This document shows, piece after piece, positions 3,807 through 23,942 of a stretch of 25,771 bases of DNA. Source of the stretch: a virus; the IMG/VR virus record IMGVR_UViG_3300027754_004706, positions 1 to 25,771 of that record, one strand, 5' to 3'. Both the position numbers and the translations under genes were made by a program. The notes under the pieces were generated by a model. It did no database searches. It was not told where the DNA came from and saw only the letters and a program-made list of their open reading frames with translations. Each line of letters opens with the position of its first letter. Position 1 is the stretch's first letter.

Positions 3807-3942
3807 TGTTATAAATAAAAAAAGAGGGAAAGTTCGTATAAAGAGATTTTCCGATGGTGAATCTGCCTGGACTCCTATATCAAATAAAAATAGTCCTGCA
3901 CCAGGATATGAAGTAAATATTAAAAAAGTATCAGATTTCTGA
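3787..3942 (+). CDS. Small basic hypothetical protein (51 aa)
   Basis: An open frame starting at the ATG at 3787 gives a 51-residue protein, strongly basic in its first half (MKLKKFSVINKKRGKVRIKR), followed by a Pro/Ser/Asn-rich part. It overlaps the end of the zinc-knuckle gene by 20 bases in another frame, a layout common here. Its last codons (KKVSDF) and stop lie inside the terminator hairpin at 3923-3950, so gene and terminator end together. I see no known family. The clean fit between stop and hairpin argues that it is real; RNA binding would suit its charge but is a guess. Confidence 0.5.
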   Translation: MKLKKFSVINKKRGKVRIKRFSDGESAWTPISNKNSPAPGYEVNIKKVSDF

Positions 3943-3950
3943 TACTTTTT
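3923..3950. terminator. Bidirectional Rho-independent terminator
   Basis: AAAAAGTATCAG - ATTT - CTGATACTTTTT is a perfect 12-bp stem with a 4-base loop, with A-runs and T-runs that work on both strands. It sits at the tail-to-tail end of the genes at 3787-3942 (+) and 3931-4710 (-) and encodes the last codons of both. Confidence 0.85.
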
Positions 3951-4710
3951 TATTTTTTAAATTGTATTTTAACCTATATAAAGTTCTTTCGGATATACCA
4001 AGAGTTTCCGATATTTCTTTGTTTTTAAGTCCTTTTGAGACTAAAGATAGTATCTGTTTATTTTTATCATATTCTAAAGTTGAATTTTTTTTACTTAACA
4101 TATAACTATTTTTATTTGACTTCCCACCAGCTATATTGGTTAAGCTATCTAACTTAGTTATAATAATATTTTCCAAAGTATATGCCTCAAGTTCGGTGAG
4201 TTCATTTTTAATTATTCTAATTATAGGTTCGCCACCATTATCGATTATTTCATTTATTAAATTTATCTTATTTGAGTTATTGTCATTTTTATTCAATTTA
4301 AGATGAGAAAATAATCTATCTCCTTTTCCTTTACCTATGTAAAATGGTTCATAGTCAAAATTGAATTTTTCACCGGAAATATCTAATACTATCTCATTAT
4401 CTAATTTTTTAAATGGGTTCATGTAAACATATACATAATTGATGAAAGATATTTCCGTGTCAGGTTTTTCTTCAACCGTGTCAGGTTTTTCTTTAACGGT
4501 GTCAGTATAGATATCATTTTCATAGTACATATCCAATCTTATTGGAACCTTCTCATTATTTATATCTACTATACTTATATTCAAGTATTCCATTAGACAT
4601 TCTTCTATAAACTCGGACATTGTTATATTTTCCGAATTAAATTTCTCATACTCCATTTTTTTCAAATAAACCGATTTTAATAATTGTCTGGATAATTTTA
4701 AATCTATCAT
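3931..4710 (-). CDS. GIY-YIG family endonuclease with C-terminal HTH (putative homing endonuclease)
   Basis: The GIY-YIG core is at residues 91-135: NYVYVYMNPFKK, then FYIGKGKGDRLFSHL, the LEM-3-like form with GKGxR. A downstream Glu near 174-180 and TNIAGG near 191-196 fit the rest of the domain. The C-terminus (218-249: LVSKGLKNKEISETLGISER) is a helix-turn-helix. The first 45 residues (LKLSRQLLKSVYLKKMEYEK, then MSEFIEECLMEYL) look like a ribbon-helix-helix unit. Between them, residues 69-85 repeat a seven-residue unit (DTVxEKP) from a 21-bp DNA repeat. It lies between small genes and dnaK, as expected of a free-standing mobile endonuclease. Recognition site and activity are unknown. Confidence 0.85.
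   Translation of the reverse strand: MIDLKLSRQLLKSVYLKKMEYEKFNSENITMSEFIEECLMEYLNISIVDINNEKVPIRLDMYYENDIYTDTVKEKPDTVEEKPDTEISFINYVYVYMNPFKKLDNEIVLDISGEKFNFDYEPFYIGKGKGDRLFSHLKLNKNDNNSNKINLINEIIDNGGEPIIRIIKNELTELEAYTLENIIITKLDSLTNIAGGKSNKNSYMLSKKNSTLEYDKNKQILSLVSKGLKNKEISETLGISERTLYRLKYNLKNKKVSEI
4455..4505. repeat. 21-bp tandem direct repeat, about 2.4 copies
   Basis: The 21-base unit (ccgtgtcaggtttttcttca plus a) occurs at 4455-4475 and 4476-4496 with one difference, then a partial copy at 4497-4505 with one mismatch. It lies in the linker of the GIY-YIG gene and encodes a DTVxEKP repeat. Slippage could change copy number in steps of seven residues without a frameshift. Confidence 0.9.
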
Positions 4711-17881: not shown

Positions 17882-18019
17882 ATTCTTTTCAATATATTGA
17901 ATCATAAATTTCTCAATTAAATTTGACATATTTATTGATTTGTCATTGCATATTTTTTTAAATTTATCGGATACTTTAATATCAATTGAAAAATTTTGTC
18001 TTTTTTTATATTTGATCAT
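17876..18019 (-). CDS. Ribbon-helix-helix (Arc/CopG-like) small DNA-binding protein (47 aa)
   Basis: The 47-residue product has a basic start (MIKYKKRQ), a beta strand (NFSIDIKV), a helix (SDKFKKICNDK), then the typical second helix after a turn (SINMSNLIEKFMIQYIEK): the Arc/MetJ/CopG fold. RHH proteins act as dimers that insert the strand in the DNA major groove, often as repressors. Its start overlaps the last codons of the upstream GIY-YIG gene by 14 bases on the same strand, so the two are co-transcribed and probably translationally coupled. Its end overlaps the convergent gene at 17552-17881. It may repress the endonuclease or help it bind DNA; neither is shown. Confidence 0.75.
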   Translation of the reverse strand: MIKYKKRQNFSIDIKVSDKFKKICNDKSINMSNLIEKFMIQYIEKNS

Positions 18020-18821
18020 TTTTATTTATTTTATTTTTTTGCCAGTAATTTTTACCAGGTCTTTCTATATTATATTTCTCTAAACAATATTGAATCTTTC
18101 TAATAGATATTCCTAATTTTTTTGATATATCCGGTATTGGTTGTTCCCATAACAATGGTTTAATATCCTCTAATAAAGAGGATAAGTCTTTTAAATAACC
18201 ATCAACTCTTTTCTTTTTATTTGGAATAAATGTATTGTTATAAAATGACTCCAAGTCCGAATTTAGATATTCTTCTCTTTTTGATTCGAAATTTACATAT
18301 GAATTTTGTCCAAACAAATATAAAGATACTTTATCATACATTTCTGCTGCCTCTATCTCACTGGATGTATATTTGTCTTTTTTAATAAAACTGTTTTGTA
18401 TTCTACAAACCCATGATTTTTTAGATTCTTTCCAGGAAACACCTTTATATATGCTATGTATTTTATTAAGTGGCTTATAATCTTTTCCCAATCTAAAGGT
18501 TGATAAATGTTTTTTCAAATCATCACTTACAAATTTATTATCACCACAACCTCTTATATTATAACCATTTGGTTTATATGTATTATACATATTTGCATAA
18601 TATGTTTCTAACCTATTTAATTCTTCTATGGATTCCACATTTTCTTTTAATATTTCAACAATAAAATTATCTAAACCATTTTTTAAGTATGAGTTTTTAA
18701 GTATTTCATTATGTGTATAGAGCCACCATTTACCACCTTTGTATCTTTCATTAAAACTATTTACTGACTGTCCAATATAAGACTTATTATTTTTTATATT
18801 TAAAATTCTATAAATAATCAT
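18006..18821 (-). CDS. GIY-YIG homing endonuclease with AP2 domain and C-terminal HTH
   Basis: From the chosen start the protein is 271 aa. The GIY-YIG domain occupies about 1-95 (IYRILN at 3-8, KSYIGQS at 13-19, R26, E72, and GYNIR at 86-90). An AP2-like DNA-binding domain follows at about 123-179 (YKGVSWKESKKSWVCRI, then SEIEAAEMYDKVSLYLFG and YVNF). A C-terminal HTH lies at about 225-252 (PIPDISKKLGISIRKIQYCL). This is a multi-domain homing endonuclease layout. A longer in-frame start at 19013 would run into the divergent uvsE gene and its promoter, so I use 18821. It is free-standing between small genes and uvsE, and is followed by an overlapping RHH gene. Confidence 0.9.
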   Translation of the reverse strand: MIIYRILNIKNNKSYIGQSVNSFNERYKGGKWWLYTHNEILKNSYLKNGLDNFIVEILKENVESIEELNRLETYYANMYNTYKPNGYNIRGCGDNKFVSDDLKKHLSTFRLGKDYKPLNKIHSIYKGVSWKESKKSWVCRIQNSFIKKDKYTSSEIEAAEMYDKVSLYLFGQNSYVNFESKREEYLNSDLESFYNNTFIPNKKKRVDGYLKDLSSLLEDIKPLLWEQPIPDISKKLGISIRKIQYCLEKYNIERPGKNYWQKNKINKNDQI

Positions 18822-18862
18822 ATAATTTTTATAATTTATAGTATATATAAAAAATGTGTGTG

Positions 18863-18870
18863 TATCTTTG
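18863..18870 (+). promoter_or_regulatory. Bacteroidota-type -7 promoter box (TATCTTTG) for the UV endonuclease gene
   Basis: TATCTTTG followed by TGTATA lies 23 bases before the ATG at 18894, in the divergent gap to the homing endonuclease. Confidence 0.75.
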
Positions 18871-18893
18871 TGTATAAATAATAATTTAAAAAA

Positions 18894-19817
18894 ATGAATA
18901 GAGTAGGATATTGTTGTATAAACATCTCGATAAATGACGGTAAGAAAAAGAAAGATTTCATTACCGTAAATAGAGGAATGGTCAAAAAAACTTTTGAGAG
19001 TAAAGGCCTTCAATATGTTACCGAGTTGGCTCTCTTAAATATAGATGATATGTTTAAGATAATAAAATGGAATAAAGAAAATGATATATTCGTATATCGA
19101 ATGTCTAGTGATATTCTTCCATGTATTGGCTTCTATAAATTAGAGGATCTACCAAAGTTTGATTTGATTTCAAAAAAATTAAAAGAGATTGGTGACTATG
19201 CTAAAAGTGTTGATATGAGATTATCATTCCATCCTACACATTTTTGCATACCCGCCAGCGAAAATCCAGTTGTTGTTGAAAATGCAATTGATGAACTAGA
19301 TAAACATGCACAAATAATGGATTTGATGGGCTTGGACCAAACACATTATTATCCAATAAATATACATGTAAACACAACAAAACCGACCAGAGAAGAAGCC
19401 GCAAAAAGATTCTGTGAGCAGTTTTGGAATTTAAGCGAGTCTTGTAGAAAGAGATTAGTAGTTGAAAATGATGATGGACCAAATCAATATTCTACAAAAA
19501 TGTTATATGATTTGATACATAAAGAAATTGGAATACCAATAACTCACGATTTTCATCATCACAATTATGGTCCCAAAGATATTTCACAAGAAGAAGCACT
19601 TAGATTGGCACACTCTACTTGGAACGTAAAGCCATTGACACACATTAGTTCACCAAAGACATTAGAAGATGCGACAGGAAGAGCAACTGCACATGCAGAC
19701 TACATTTATGAAGAGATTCAAACGTATGGTCTCAAATTCGATACAGAGATTGAAGCAAAAGCTAAAGACCTTGCCGTCATTAAGTATAGAAGCCAATTTA
19801 AAGTACTCAAAAGCTAA
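18894..19817 (+). CDS. uvsE: UV damage endonuclease (UvdE/UvsE family)
   Basis: This 307-aa TIM-barrel protein starts RVGYCCIN, the family opening, and carries RLSFHPTHFC (about 109-118), the strand with the HVNTTKPTR segment, VVENDD (metal-binding Glu/Asp, about 198-203) and THDFHHHNY (about 225-233). These match the metal-ligand positions of UvdE. The enzyme cuts 5' of UV photoproducts and some other lesions to start excision repair. T4 uses the unrelated DenV, so this would be a different solution to the same need. It has its own TATCTTTG promoter and lies next to a homing endonuclease that may have spread into this spot. Length is normal for the family. Confidence 0.95.
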   Translation: MNRVGYCCINISINDGKKKKDFITVNRGMVKKTFESKGLQYVTELALLNIDDMFKIIKWNKENDIFVYRMSSDILPCIGFYKLEDLPKFDLISKKLKEIGDYAKSVDMRLSFHPTHFCIPASENPVVVENAIDELDKHAQIMDLMGLDQTHYYPINIHVNTTKPTREEAAKRFCEQFWNLSESCRKRLVVENDDGPNQYSTKMLYDLIHKEIGIPITHDFHHHNYGPKDISQEEALRLAHSTWNVKPLTHISSPKTLEDATGRATAHADYIYEEIQTYGLKFDTEIEAKAKDLAVIKYRSQFKVLKS

Positions 19818-20954: not shown

Positions 20955-21193
20955 ATTCCTAAATCGTTTAGTTTGTCTTCTCTTATTTCAATTTTCAATT
21001 CGTCAATCATCTTCACCACACCAGGTCCAAAGTCTTTCAAATCGGTCATACTCAATCTATAGCTGTATTTCTTACCTGTTGTTTTGTGTATGAATTCGTA
21101 TACCGGTGCCATAGTCATATGGTCGATAATCATCTCACTATGATAGTAATGGCCCAATCTTTCTAACTCAAATGCCAAGTCTTTCATTCCCAA
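20951..21193 (-). CDS. Hypothetical protein (80 aa)
   Basis: I do not recognise this protein. It appears to be a compact soluble alpha/beta protein (KDLAFELERLGHYYHSEM, then YEFIHKTTGKKYSYRLSM). It starts inside the end of the dCMP deaminase gene (10-base overlap) and ends in an ATGA overlap with the thioesterase gene, so it is translated as part of this operon. An alternative Met two codons later (MKDLAF) is possible. Function unknown. Confidence 0.65.
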   Translation of the reverse strand: MGMKDLAFELERLGHYYHSEMIIDHMTMAPVYEFIHKTTGKKYSYRLSMTDLKDFGPGVVKMIDELKIEIREDKLNDLGI

Positions 21194-21603
21194 TCGTATT
21201 TGACTATTTCAATACCAGCATTTCTCAAAAAATCTAATCCTGTGATGTCTTTATATTCTTCTACATAAACAAGTTTCTTTATTCCTGATTGAAGAATCAG
21301 TTTTGAACAATCTCTACAAGGAGAATGTGTTTGATAAAGAGTTCCACCTTCACAAGAATGTCCATGACGAGCACATTTCAAAATAGCATTGGCTTCACCG
21401 TGGATAACATCCCATTTAGTCTCACCATTATCAAGCTCACAAGCGTTTTCTTGACCTGCTGCAGTTCCGTTATACCCATCTGATATAATCATACCATTCT
21501 TTACTATAAGAGCACCTACCTGCTTTCTGGTGCAGTGAGAGAGCTGTGCCCACTCTTTTGCCATGTTCAAATAAGTTCTATCGTATCTTTCTTGTTTATT
21601 CAT
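21184..21603 (-). CDS. cd: Deoxycytidylate (dCMP) deaminase
   Basis: The zinc-dependent deaminase signature is complete: HGEANAI at 68-74 (H68 ligand, E70 proton shuttle) and PCRDC at 95-99 (C96 and C99 ligands). The N-terminal part (AKEWAQLSHCTRKQVGALIV) and the DGYNGT motif (42-47) are typical of dCMP deaminases, in which the latter helps bind the substrate. The enzyme turns dCMP into dUMP for thymidylate synthesis, as T4 gene cd does. Length (139 aa) is a little shorter than T4 cd, whose zinc-finger insert is reduced here. It overlaps its neighbours on both sides within the minus-strand cluster. Confidence 0.95.
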   Translation of the reverse strand: MNKQERYDRTYLNMAKEWAQLSHCTRKQVGALIVKNGMIISDGYNGTAAGQENACELDNGETKWDVIHGEANAILKCARHGHSCEGGTLYQTHSPCRDCSKLILQSGIKKLVYVEEYKDITGLDFLRNAGIEIVKYDWE

Positions 21604-21751
21604 TGAACATTTTGTTTATCTTTTCTATTCTTAAATCCTTTTTTCTCAAGCCAAGCATTCTCATCAGATAGTCTTTGGAAAACATAGGCTGACCACTATT
21701 TATCATAGCAGCCATCTTGTTCATAATTTCCTTTACCTTTTCTACTTCCAT
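21596..21751 (-). CDS. Small hypothetical protein (51 aa), overlapped at both ends
   Basis: An open frame of 51 codons fills the gap between the 65-aa gene and dCMP deaminase, overlapping the first by 10 bases and the second by 8. The product is Met- and Lys-rich and probably all helical (MEVEKVKEIMNKMAAMINSG, then KDYLMRMLGLRKKDLRI). No family is recognised. The tight fit between both neighbours, the lack of any other explanation for this gap, and the same overlap style as other genes in the cluster support it as a real gene. Confidence 0.65.
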   Translation of the reverse strand: MEVEKVKEIMNKMAAMINSGQPMFSKDYLMRMLGLRKKDLRIEKINKMFNE

Positions 21752-21939
21752 GCAAGTATCTTTATTATCTTTTTCTTTCTGGCCTCAACTCTTTCCGTCA
21801 TTATCTCGGAAATCATATCAGAGACTTGCTTTGATGTAATGATATAATTGCCAGCACCGCTTCTCGCCACTTTATTTATGTAAGCAGCAGATTGAAGTAT
21901 CTTTTCATAAAGATTCTTTTGGTGCTGGCCATTATCCAT
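21742..21939 (-). CDS. Small hypothetical protein (65 aa)
   Basis: I do not recognise this protein. It is mainly helical and basic at its C-terminus (MTERVEARKKKIIKILAWK). A short turn-rich middle (ARSGAGNYIITSKQVSDMIS) could be the start of a helix-turn-helix, but this is weak. The start overlaps the nusG stop by one base (TAATG), and its end overlaps the next small gene. Being directly behind nusG, it could act with it, though only position suggests that. Confidence 0.6.
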   Translation of the reverse strand: MDNGQHQKNLYEKILQSAAYINKVARSGAGNYIITSKQVSDMISEIMTERVEARKKKIIKILAWK

Positions 21940-22490
21940 TATGCTTTCTTGTCAATCTGATTTATGTTAAGCTCGATTAAAGTGATTCTTCCGAATACAG
22001 AAACAGCAACTTTTACTTTGTCACCACTTACTTGTTCAATCTTACCGGTAAATGTATTGAAAGGTCCTTCCAATATCTGAACCTCTTCACCTGCGATGAA
22101 CTTAACTTCAACTTCAACTTCTTCTAGAACTCTTTTTTGTTCACCAATCATTCTATCAACTTCTAACTGTGTAAGTGGTAAAATATCACCAGTTCTATTT
22201 GTTAGAAATCCTTGTGCACCATTCATTCCTTTTAAGAAGTATTTAAGTTCACCTACTGCATTTGTTTCAATGAAAATATATCCTGGGAATTTTACTTTCT
22301 CTCTTTTTACTTTCTTTCCATTTTTCAAATAGAATGAATTTTCGATTGGAACGATTACTCGTCCAAGTTTACCCATCAAATCACCGACAGCACCTTCGTT
22401 TGTAAGTCTTTCACCTATTGATCTCTCTCGGTTGCTTTGAGCTCTAACGACATACCACTTCATTGTGGTTTCTTTTTCAACTATGTTCAT
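21939..22490 (-). CDS. nusG: NusG-family transcription elongation factor
   Basis: This 183-aa protein has both NusG domains. The NGN domain runs over about 10-115, with MKWYVVRAQSNRERSIGERL (the family opening) and KFPGYIFIE (about 67-75, the conserved FPGYvfv segment). The KOW domain covers about 130-180, with IAGEEVQILEGPFNTFTGKI. NusG binds the RNA polymerase clamp and improves processivity, and through KOW links to Rho or ribosomes. A phage copy may favour phage transcripts or resist termination, as antiterminators do; this is inference. An alternative start at 22463 (MKWYVV) matches the family length better, but the first ATG has the usual A-rich upstream context. The gene starts an overlapping minus-strand cluster. 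Confidence 0.95.
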   Translation of the reverse strand: MNIVEKETTMKWYVVRAQSNRERSIGERLTNEGAVGDLMGKLGRVIVPIENSFYLKNGKKVKREKVKFPGYIFIETNAVGELKYFLKGMNGAQGFLTNRTGDILPLTQLEVDRMIGEQKRVLEEVEVEVKFIAGEEVQILEGPFNTFTGKIEQVSGDKVKVAVSVFGRITLIELNINQIDKKA

Positions 22491-22508: not shown

Positions 22509-22919
22509 TTAGTTTCCTTTTTCTAACTTTTTTAAGTATGTTTGTTCTTCTTTTATAAAATCTGGATACCTATCGATTAGATAGTCTAGATCAGACTCTT
22601 TTATTTGTAAATGTCTAAGAAGCTGTTTATATTCTTTTTCGGGCATGGCTTTTTCATGTTTAGGACTTTTAGACCAGAACCAATCTGGGTATGGTTGTGT
22701 CTTCATAAAATGAAACCAAAGATCCATAGCAGTTGCTTTATCTATCGTTTTCAGATTCAAAAGTTGTGCTTTTTGAGGATATTTTTTAGAAAAGTATCGA
22801 TTGAAGATAAAGAAAAATTTCTCTTTATCTTCATCGCTTACTTTCTTTTTATTGTTTGTATATATCCAGTCGTTCTTGAATTTGAATATCGCGTTGGCGA
22901 CATCTGTTATTTCAGCCAT
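22509..22919 (-). CDS. Hypothetical protein (136 aa), possibly a small clamp-loader subunit
   Basis: No firm family match. The protein is helical, aromatic-rich and basic. FFFIFNRYFSKKYPQKAQLL (about 36-55) recalls the 'NRxLSxxPD' region of small clamp-loader subunits (T4 gp62-like) in distant phages. The DLWFHFMKTQPYPDWFWSK, KxYKQLLRHLQIKESDL and DYLIDRYPDF segments are compatible with its C-terminal helices. This similarity is loose and from memory. Position between rnh and nusG, among replication genes, fits but does not prove it. The upstream 48 bases are AT-rich with no TAnnTTTG box. Confidence 0.6.
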   Translation of the reverse strand: MAEITDVANAIFKFKNDWIYTNNKKKVSDEDKEKFFFIFNRYFSKKYPQKAQLLNLKTIDKATAMDLWFHFMKTQPYPDWFWSKSPKHEKAMPEKEYKQLLRHLQIKESDLDYLIDRYPDFIKEEQTYLKKLEKGN

Positions 22920-22967: not shown

Positions 22968-23942
22968 TTATCTAATTTTCTCATATCCCAACTCCATTTT
23001 TTCAAGAATCTCTTCTGGAAGGTTGTGAAGTCTCAAATCGATAAGCTTAAAGTTTCCTTTTATATTTTCGACGATTTCTTCAATCTTGGACTTGCTCAGC
23101 TTCTTTTTCTCACAGATTAGATCTGCAATATTCTCGTTTAAGTCTGGATCTGATAAGTTTATCTCACCAAATTCTTCGATATAAGAGTCATAGATACCTT
23201 TAGCTCCTTTAGAACCAATTCCTCTTGTCTTTCCGTTTTTAGTTACATTCCATACAGAAGAGATATTATCACTTTGGTCTCCCGATATAATTTTTATCAT
23301 AAGAGATTCGATAGGGTTTATCTCATTCAGTTCATATTTGTTTATAAACCTGTCCATAAGAGCCAAAAACTCTGAATTGTCGTTCAGCTCGAAGATGTTG
23401 TCGTTTGGAAGCTTAGATACTTTGTTCAGGAATATTTGATAGTTCTGAGGAAGGAAAAGCTTCTCTTTGTTGAACATCTCGTTAGACATGATGTTTATAT
23501 AAAGAGGGTCTAAACCATAGTTTACTATTTGTTTGATATCATAGTCATTAGAAACTATGATTGTAGAACGGGATTCTTTATTAGCTCTTTCAACTAAGAA
23601 AGAAATCCAGTCATCGCCTTCTACGTGAGGTGCTTCCAATACTTTAGTACCTGCTGTGATTCCTTTTTTGAAATCACCATAGGTTTCGTAGACGAAGTTC
23701 CAGTCAATGTCGGTGTCTTTTTTTCGAGTGGCTTTGTATGCACTTGTGTATTGTTTTCTCCAAGATTTTTCTTTGGAGTCGGAAACTAAATAAATATTGG
23801 CAAATGGATACCATTTGCGGTAGTTACTTATAGTATTTTCTAAAGACTTGTGTAATGCACCAAAAAGTAGATTATTCTTATGTAATGTAAAAACCAGTTT
23901 GCTTAAAATATAATTCCCATCGATGATAAGGTCAACTAACAT
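22968..23942 (-). CDS. rnh: T4 RNase H-like 5'-3' exonuclease (FEN family)
   Basis: A 324-aa protein with the acidic residues of the FEN/RNase H family in order: DGNYIL with D8, the basic SWRKQYTSAYKATRKK segment (60-75), EGDDW at 108-112 (E108, D110, D111), SNDYDIKQ at 131-138 (D133, D135), and the helix-3-turn region SGDQSDNI at 220-227 (D222, D225). T4 RNase H is 305 aa and removes RNA primers and adjacent DNA from lagging-strand fragments; this length is close. It lies in the replication-related minus-strand cluster, 64 bases after the gene at 24007-24531. Both strand polarity and neighbours fit a T4-like replication gene set. Confidence 0.93.
   Translation of the reverse strand: MLVDLIIDGNYILSKLVFTLHKNNLLFGALHKSLENTISNYRKWYPFANIYLVSDSKEKSWRKQYTSAYKATRKKDTDIDWNFVYETYGDFKKGITAGTKVLEAPHVEGDDWISFLVERANKESRSTIIVSNDYDIKQIVNYGLDPLYINIMSNEMFNKEKLFLPQNYQIFLNKVSKLPNDNIFELNDNSEFLALMDRFINKYELNEINPIESLMIKIISGDQSDNISSVWNVTKNGKTRGIGSKGAKGIYDSYIEEFGEINLSDPDLNENIADLICEKKKLSKSKIEEIVENIKGNFKLIDLRLHNLPEEILEKMELGYEKIR

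Follow-up and report, generated by a model that had tools for sequence, protein, structure and literature searches.

A phage-borne NusG of Bacteroidota ancestry as a candidate replacement for the host elongation factor

To our knowledge, no family of transcription factors other than NusG is found in every domain of life, and lambda, among other phages, borrows the NusG protein of its host. Why, then, does a phage carry a complete nusG gene of its own? The question is raised by the window analyzed here, the virus record IMGVR_UViG_3300027754_004706 of 25,771 bases, which is taken as a fragment of a huge phage. If huge phages replace NusG, they would possess a direct route for taking over the host RNA polymerase without encoding one.

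The gene occupies positions 21939..22490 of the minus strand, a strand that the sequence-only reading had not given, and forms an intact frame of 183 amino acids with an ATG start. Residues 10-114 (22149..22463, minus strand) match the NGN domain of NusG (Pfam PF02357, E=1.2e-14, above the curated cut-off), and the KOW domain spans residues 131-181 (21948..22100, minus strand), with a Pfam match at residues 134-161 (PF00467, E=5.6e-5, also above cut-off). Almost the entire protein (residues 7-181) is covered by PHROG 6386, 'transcription antiterminator' (4.6e-27, 169/179 profile positions), and the PDB sequence matches across residues 11-181 are NusGs (8ehq_G, 6.9e-24; E. coli NusG, 4.8e-22). 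The AlphaFold2 model (mean pLDDT 81.7, pTM 0.56) consists of an alpha/beta NGN domain and an all-beta KOW domain of five strands, and its top PDB fold matches are NusG chains. The KOW alpha hairpin is absent from this model, which represents a single predicted state computed from 15 sequences and leaves room for a switch. The proposal that the window encodes a full-length NusG with both NGN and KOW, previously made from the letters alone, is thus confirmed.

The gene belongs to a run of closely spaced minus-strand genes that extends from a T4-type topoisomerase subunit (25763) to two genes past a dCMP deaminase. The order is topoisomerase subunit, two unknown genes, a 5'-3' exonuclease of the T4 RNase H type (22968..23942, from profile matches), a 136-aa gene (22509..22919), nusG, ORFs of 65 aa (21742..21939) and 51 aa (21596..21751, eight rows found), the dCMP deaminase (21184..21603, from profile matches), and two more genes. 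Since these neighbors are of phage type and the relatives lie in large viral records, nusG is a phage gene, and it would be expressed together with the replication genes. The 136-aa gene, conserved directly upstream of nusG and separated from it by 18 nt in the window, belongs to an unnamed family, with no significant match in Pfam, PHROG, or PDB profile searches and a poor structural model (pLDDT 62). T4 gp62 or gp33, which we had presumed as its possible identity, were rejected, as profile comparison with T4 and syn9 gp62, syn9 gp33, gp59, and gp55 gave no match. Elsewhere in the window, two minus-strand ORFs (3931-4710 and 18006-19013) resemble homing endonucleases of the GIY-YIG type when read from the letters.

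The sequence-only reading had noted a one-base overlap between nusG and the 65-aa gene and had suggested that the two products may act together. The overlap is there: the TAA stop and the ATG start share an A in TAATG (21941..21937), and the 65-aa ORF is probably co-translated with nusG. The suggested joint action finds no support; the product resembles a segment of the major capsid protein Gp23 (PF07068, 2.9e-4), not a transcription protein, and phrog_138, the major head protein family, is matched by 11 of the 12 members of the 65-aa family, with a best value of 1.4e-4. Judged by these similarities, a role as transcription partner of NusG is not credible. The ORF was found in 34/83 loci, within 35 nt of nusG in 22 of them and at 0.4-0.8 kb in the other 12; in two loci with the wider gap (L120 and L003) an HNH-like gene, read from the letters, lies in between. 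Short Gp23-like ORFs are scattered in these phages besides the full capsid gene, both in the window (21742-21939) and in the records G001, G004, W01, and W04, and the 385-kb contig G001 has Gp23-like frames of 81, 86, and 93 aa.

Relatives of the gene were found in viral contigs and in a phage collection. A scan of the viral contigs with a single sequence gave 18 loci, and a profile scan gave 79 loci out of 84 confirmed stretches. The phage-collection search returned 25 records, of which five are from huge phages, with LR756501 and LR756503 sharing length and position. The four huge-phage records with nusG comprise 634,780, 642,428, 636,363, and 735,411 bases and are taken, from size and origin, to be Mahaphages, a cluster of five genomes above 634 kb that the huge-phage paper predicts to replicate in Bacteroidetes (PMC7162821). 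Eight bacterial-type contigs were inspected from the other 20 records of the collection; rplK adjoins nusG in six, which are therefore regarded as bacterial chromosome, and is missing from the inspected stretch of the remaining two (L202 and L205). Similarly, nusG of the Microcystis phage MaAM05 record (MW495066.1, 37690-40253; L006) stands within tRNA-Trp-secE-nusG-rplK-rplA, and that part resembles a bacterial chromosome.

The phage gene, in contrast to housekeeping nusG, lies outside the secE-nusG-rplK cluster, and neither rplK nor rplA was detected near it in any of the 83 phage loci. Its position is fixed among the phages: the exonuclease and 136-aa genes lie upstream on the same strand in 41 of the 49 non-redundant main-clade rows besides the window, and in 34 of these 41 the 136-aa gene ends no more than 150 nt from nusG. 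The eight exceptions include six rows that form one subclade, one row at a contig end, and one with 1.3 kb of upstream sequence lacking the two genes. A divergent phage nusG in L177 (4339-7501), read by eye, lies between apparent ClpP and RNase R genes.

We also examined 14 large records, the four from huge phages and ten large IMG/VR contigs, each of which, being selected for having the gene, encodes exactly one NusG. RNA polymerase beta subunit, S10, and NusB were each found in 0/14 of these records, and a sigma-70 region 2 protein is present in 12/14. This combination suggests that the phage uses the polymerase and ribosomes of the host and brings its own initiation and elongation factor. 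Because no beta subunit was found in the phage, the host polymerase is the likely target; during elongation the phage NusG would sit on its beta' clamp helices, where NusG normally binds. One of the 14 records, the 636-kb phage LR756504.1 (W03), is the sole one with NusA (304698-305066, E=7.1e-28).

For the phylogenetic analysis, the 81 phage sequences were reduced to 56 by dropping rows more than 0.92 similar (difflib), and a tree of 96 rows was rooted on non-Bacteroidota NusGs; an earlier tree with two paralogs as its root had been discarded because of its long branches. Fifty phage rows form one clade (bootstrap 100, SH-aLRT 96) inside the Bacteroidota housekeeping NusGs. This clade adjoins Flavobacteriia-type rows, with weak placement (89/97 and 82/83), and the best 80 genome loci listed as nearest are all from Bacteroidota. 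L005, from the 735-kb phage, and L175 fall elsewhere in the tree, and more than one capture of nusG by phages is possible; neither a single origin of the 56 sequences (p=0.343) nor a separate Bacteroidota clade (p=0.364) is rejected by the AU test. The L005 gene (LR756501.1, 5164-11859) apparently stands, by eye, among sugar-transfer and NAD-epimerase-like genes, surroundings that recall the paralogs of capsule operons, yet its residue at position 70 is Leu and its IFGR loop is intact.

Within the main clade, the housekeeping profile outscores the paralog profile for both the NGN and the KOW domain in 50/50 rows (median 76.5 and 48.5 bits). A chimera of a paralog NGN domain and a host KOW domain was accordingly rejected as the simplest reading, the housekeeping profile winning for both domains in every row. 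In single-domain trees, a joint clade of phage proteins and paralogs stays unrejected by the AU test (p=0.585 and 0.53), with which a chimera is still compatible. Between the window and five relatives with unsaturated dS, dN/dS is 0.045-0.125, which indicates strong purifying selection; taken with its fixed position and its spread among viral records, the phage nusG is a functional, long-held phage gene.

What distinguishes the phage protein from a host NusG? We compared the 50-row phage clade with 82 host-type Bacteroidota NusGs and with 20 Bacteroidota paralogs, which we take to be UpxY-like. The host-type proteins comprise a set of 32, in which Phe is favored at the position described below because one of the two scan patterns contains it, and a non-random set of 50 from a scan without the Phe pattern (the 30 best-scoring loci and 20 hand-picked lower down). 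The residue pattern of the clade arose once, and a count of 50/50 stands for one event and its conservation rather than for 50 independent cases.

On the clamp-helix surface, Phe73 of the window protein (codon 22272..22274, minus strand) corresponds to L70 of E. coli NusG and F56 of RfaH. Phe occupies this position in 50/50 phage rows and 20/20 paralogs, as against 3/82 housekeeping NusGs, in place of the Leu/Met of the host protein; Leu (3), Tyr (2), or Phe (1) stands there in the six phage rows that fall outside this clade. Y68 is kept in 50/50 main-clade rows, and the phage NusG would most likely attach to the clamp helices of RNA polymerase and to its gate loop. According to a study of RfaH (PMC2871177), Phe56 is conserved only in RfaH-like proteins, most NusGs having Leu, and an RfaH with F56L is either recruited less well to the elongation complex or held there less well; the mutant keeps the wild-type effect on escape at ops and is rescued at high concentration. 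The effect of Phe73 may therefore be modest. An RfaH-type Phe, and the tighter binding it may confer, would help the phage NusG to stay bound in competition with host NusG and sigma, which are more abundant. That it displaces the host protein, as the sequence-only reading had considered possible, becomes plausible with this substitution.

A second group of changes is located in the DNA-facing loop and helix, residues 18-28 (22407..22439, minus strand), where the phage-specific residues Q18, N20, S24, and R28 correspond to positions 15, 17, 21, and 25 of E. coli NusG and to K10, G12, R16, and H20 of RfaH. Position 15 is Gln in 45/50 phage rows and in 0/82 hosts (F/Y/V/I/A), the paralogs having mostly Arg or Lys; position 17 is Asn in 48/50 phage rows and in 0/82 hosts (Gly in 77, Ser in 5). 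Ser is found at position 21 in 40/50 phage rows and 0/82 hosts (K/R in 82/82), and Lys or Arg at position 25 in 50/50 phage rows versus 1/82 hosts. The ops DNA is touched by K10, H20, R23, and R73 of RfaH (PMC5995543). These four side chains are not matched in the phage clade, where residues at three of the four positions are polar or basic: position 28 (R23) is Lys in 33/50 rows, and position 87 (R73) is mostly Asn or Asp, Arg not being among its leading residues. A Phe at the F56 position and a polar residue at the K10 position are shared by the phage protein, RfaH, and the Bacteroidota paralogs. The altered loop would be expected to change the contact with the non-template strand.

With a mean of 0.72 bit, divergence at the five RfaH DNA-contact side-chain positions exceeds that of random NGN positions (P=0.003), and the four clamp-helix positions (RfaH Y8, Y54, F56, and F81) as a set diverge no more than such random positions (P=0.65), with only F56 standing out; these P values assume exchangeable positions and treat the clade as a single lineage, and they serve to rank sites rather than as proof of adaptation.

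The KOW domain presents a different picture. Rho is contacted by two loops of E. coli NusG, residues 140-144 and 163-167, and F165 has a part in binding S10 as well as Rho, as set out in the paper that defines the loops (PMC6391919). The corresponding loops of the window protein are L1 at residues 143-147 (PFNTF; 22050..22064, minus strand) and L2, the Rho/S10 contact loop, at residues 164-168 (SVFGR; 21987..22001, minus strand), and L2 is retained. F141, F165, and R167 are kept in 50/50 main-clade rows; loop 164-167 has Ile or Val in 50/50, Phe in 50/50, Gly in 44/50, and Arg in 50/50 (VFGR in the window), G166 being changed in 6/50. F165 and R167 are each found in 0/20 paralogs and, as in the paralogs, both are lost from RfaH. 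At 0.14 bit, divergence in the two Rho/S10 loops is below that of random KOW positions (P=0.03, under the same assumptions).

The scans allow a check on how the rows were collected. The profile scan of the viral contigs used one pattern containing N17 and another containing the IFGR loop, with F70 in neither. All 24 rows that match the N17 pattern alone have both F165 and R167 (24/24), and of the ten that match the loop pattern alone, four have N17 and five lie outside the main clade. A third, independent scan, whose patterns were built on other residues and in one case included the Phe, gave 61 loci, 60 of them with a NusG ORF and just one with a new protein. All of these ORFs (60/60; 58 by the first expression and two by eye) have IFxR or VFxR, and positions 15/17 read QxN in 52, AxN in six, QxM in one, and Q-N-N in one unparsed case. 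Judged from these residues, the NusG of the phage clade appears to combine an RfaH-type anchor and a distinct DNA face with a KOW domain of host type.

This pattern bears on the idea, put forward in the sequence-only reading, that a second NusG could uncouple Rho from phage transcripts, the phage NusG sitting on RNA polymerase and being unable to recruit Rho. RfaH is thought to protect its own operons in that way (PMC7593976), and Phe73 fits the displacement step. When the KOW contact residues are compared with those of host NusG, however, the Rho contacts are of host type, unlike those of the paralogs, and the same loop serves S10; contacts identical to those of host NusG are the outcome that the sequence-only reading had itself named as refuting it. 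Both L1 and L2 are kept in 50/50 rows, in the 24 rows found without the loop pattern, and in the 60/60 ORFs of the independent scan. With the Rho loop in place, the sequence does not imply an uncoupling of Rho, which we regard as improbable. The reverse possibility, that a NusG held tightly on the polymerase, its Rho loop intact, brings Rho to untranslated host transcripts and so shuts off the host, is permitted by the combination of an RfaH-type anchor with that loop; its choice of target lacks support, the transcripts of the phage would also be at risk unless well translated, and we give it only a very slight chance.

The polar residues at the RfaH K10 and H20 positions could point to an operon-specific antiterminator of the UpxY/RfaH kind, acting on one phage operon. 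The loop residues lost in the paralog KOW domains are, however, kept in the phage proteins; the modeled KOW domain is beta, without the alpha hairpin; and the gene stands among replication and nucleotide genes rather than at the head of one long operon. On this balance a dedicated antiterminator appears highly improbable.

The phage gene could also be an ordinary extra NusG that would only raise the dose of elongation factor late in infection, with the residue changes due to drift or to the fit to a particular host polymerase. The nearest relatives of both domains among housekeeping NusGs and the host type of the Rho/S10 loop are in agreement with such a role. Against it, the changes are almost invariant even though the rows have only between roughly a third and half of their residues in common, they fall at DNA-contact and clamp-helix positions (above chance for the DNA set), and they are almost unseen in host-type NusGs (3/82, 1/82, 0/82). 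We therefore consider an extra dose unlikely.

The explanation that we favor, at somewhat better than even chances, is that huge Bacteroidota phages have kept a NusG derived from the housekeeping NusG of the host, which would replace host NusG on the host polymerase and couple phage transcription to ribosomes. The KOW domain, retaining its surface for S10 and Rho, would tie processive phage transcription to host ribosomes, and protection from Rho would come through coupling to translation, not through a lost contact with Rho. The same length, the same NGN and beta-barrel KOW architecture, the same Rho/S10 loops, and the best-scoring profile for both domains link the phage protein to housekeeping Bacteroidota NusG; gene location, Phe for Leu/Met at position 70, and Q, N, S, and K/R at positions 15, 17, 21, and 25 set it apart.

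In the published scheme for RfaH, Rho binding is lost first and tighter binding to polymerase comes next (PMC7593976, section 10). The phage clade, with its changes in the anchor and DNA face and its Rho loop intact, offers a natural test of another order of steps, and of what a tightly binding, Rho-competent NusG does. Tentatively, these phages may even have followed a route opposite to that of RfaH, gaining the anchor and a new face toward the non-template DNA (Q-x-N, K/R25) while keeping the Rho/S10 loop; such a protein could load at a phage-specific pause sequence, mark the polymerases on phage DNA, and couple them to ribosomes.

A comparable case is the ribosomal protein bS21 of Bacteroidetes phages, which, as presented in its description (PMC9723584), is likewise a Flavobacteriia-type host part with some positions changed and a proposed replacement of the host protein, but its target is the ribosome rather than RNA polymerase. 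Phage-borne NusG-like proteins are not new in themselves, being already catalogued as PHROG 6386, an entry that is silent on mechanism and to which the residue analysis made here is a new addition. In the open-licence literature, supplements aside, we found no published description of a phage NusG in huge phages or of the mixed residue pattern, and the gene may appear in the supplementary tables of PMC7162821. Excluded from the tree and counts as weak loci, the viral contigs L181, L182, and L183 have longer NusG-like ORFs, called at 336, 220, and 280 aa, in which the IFGR loop is intact, and apparently represent other phage NusG lineages.
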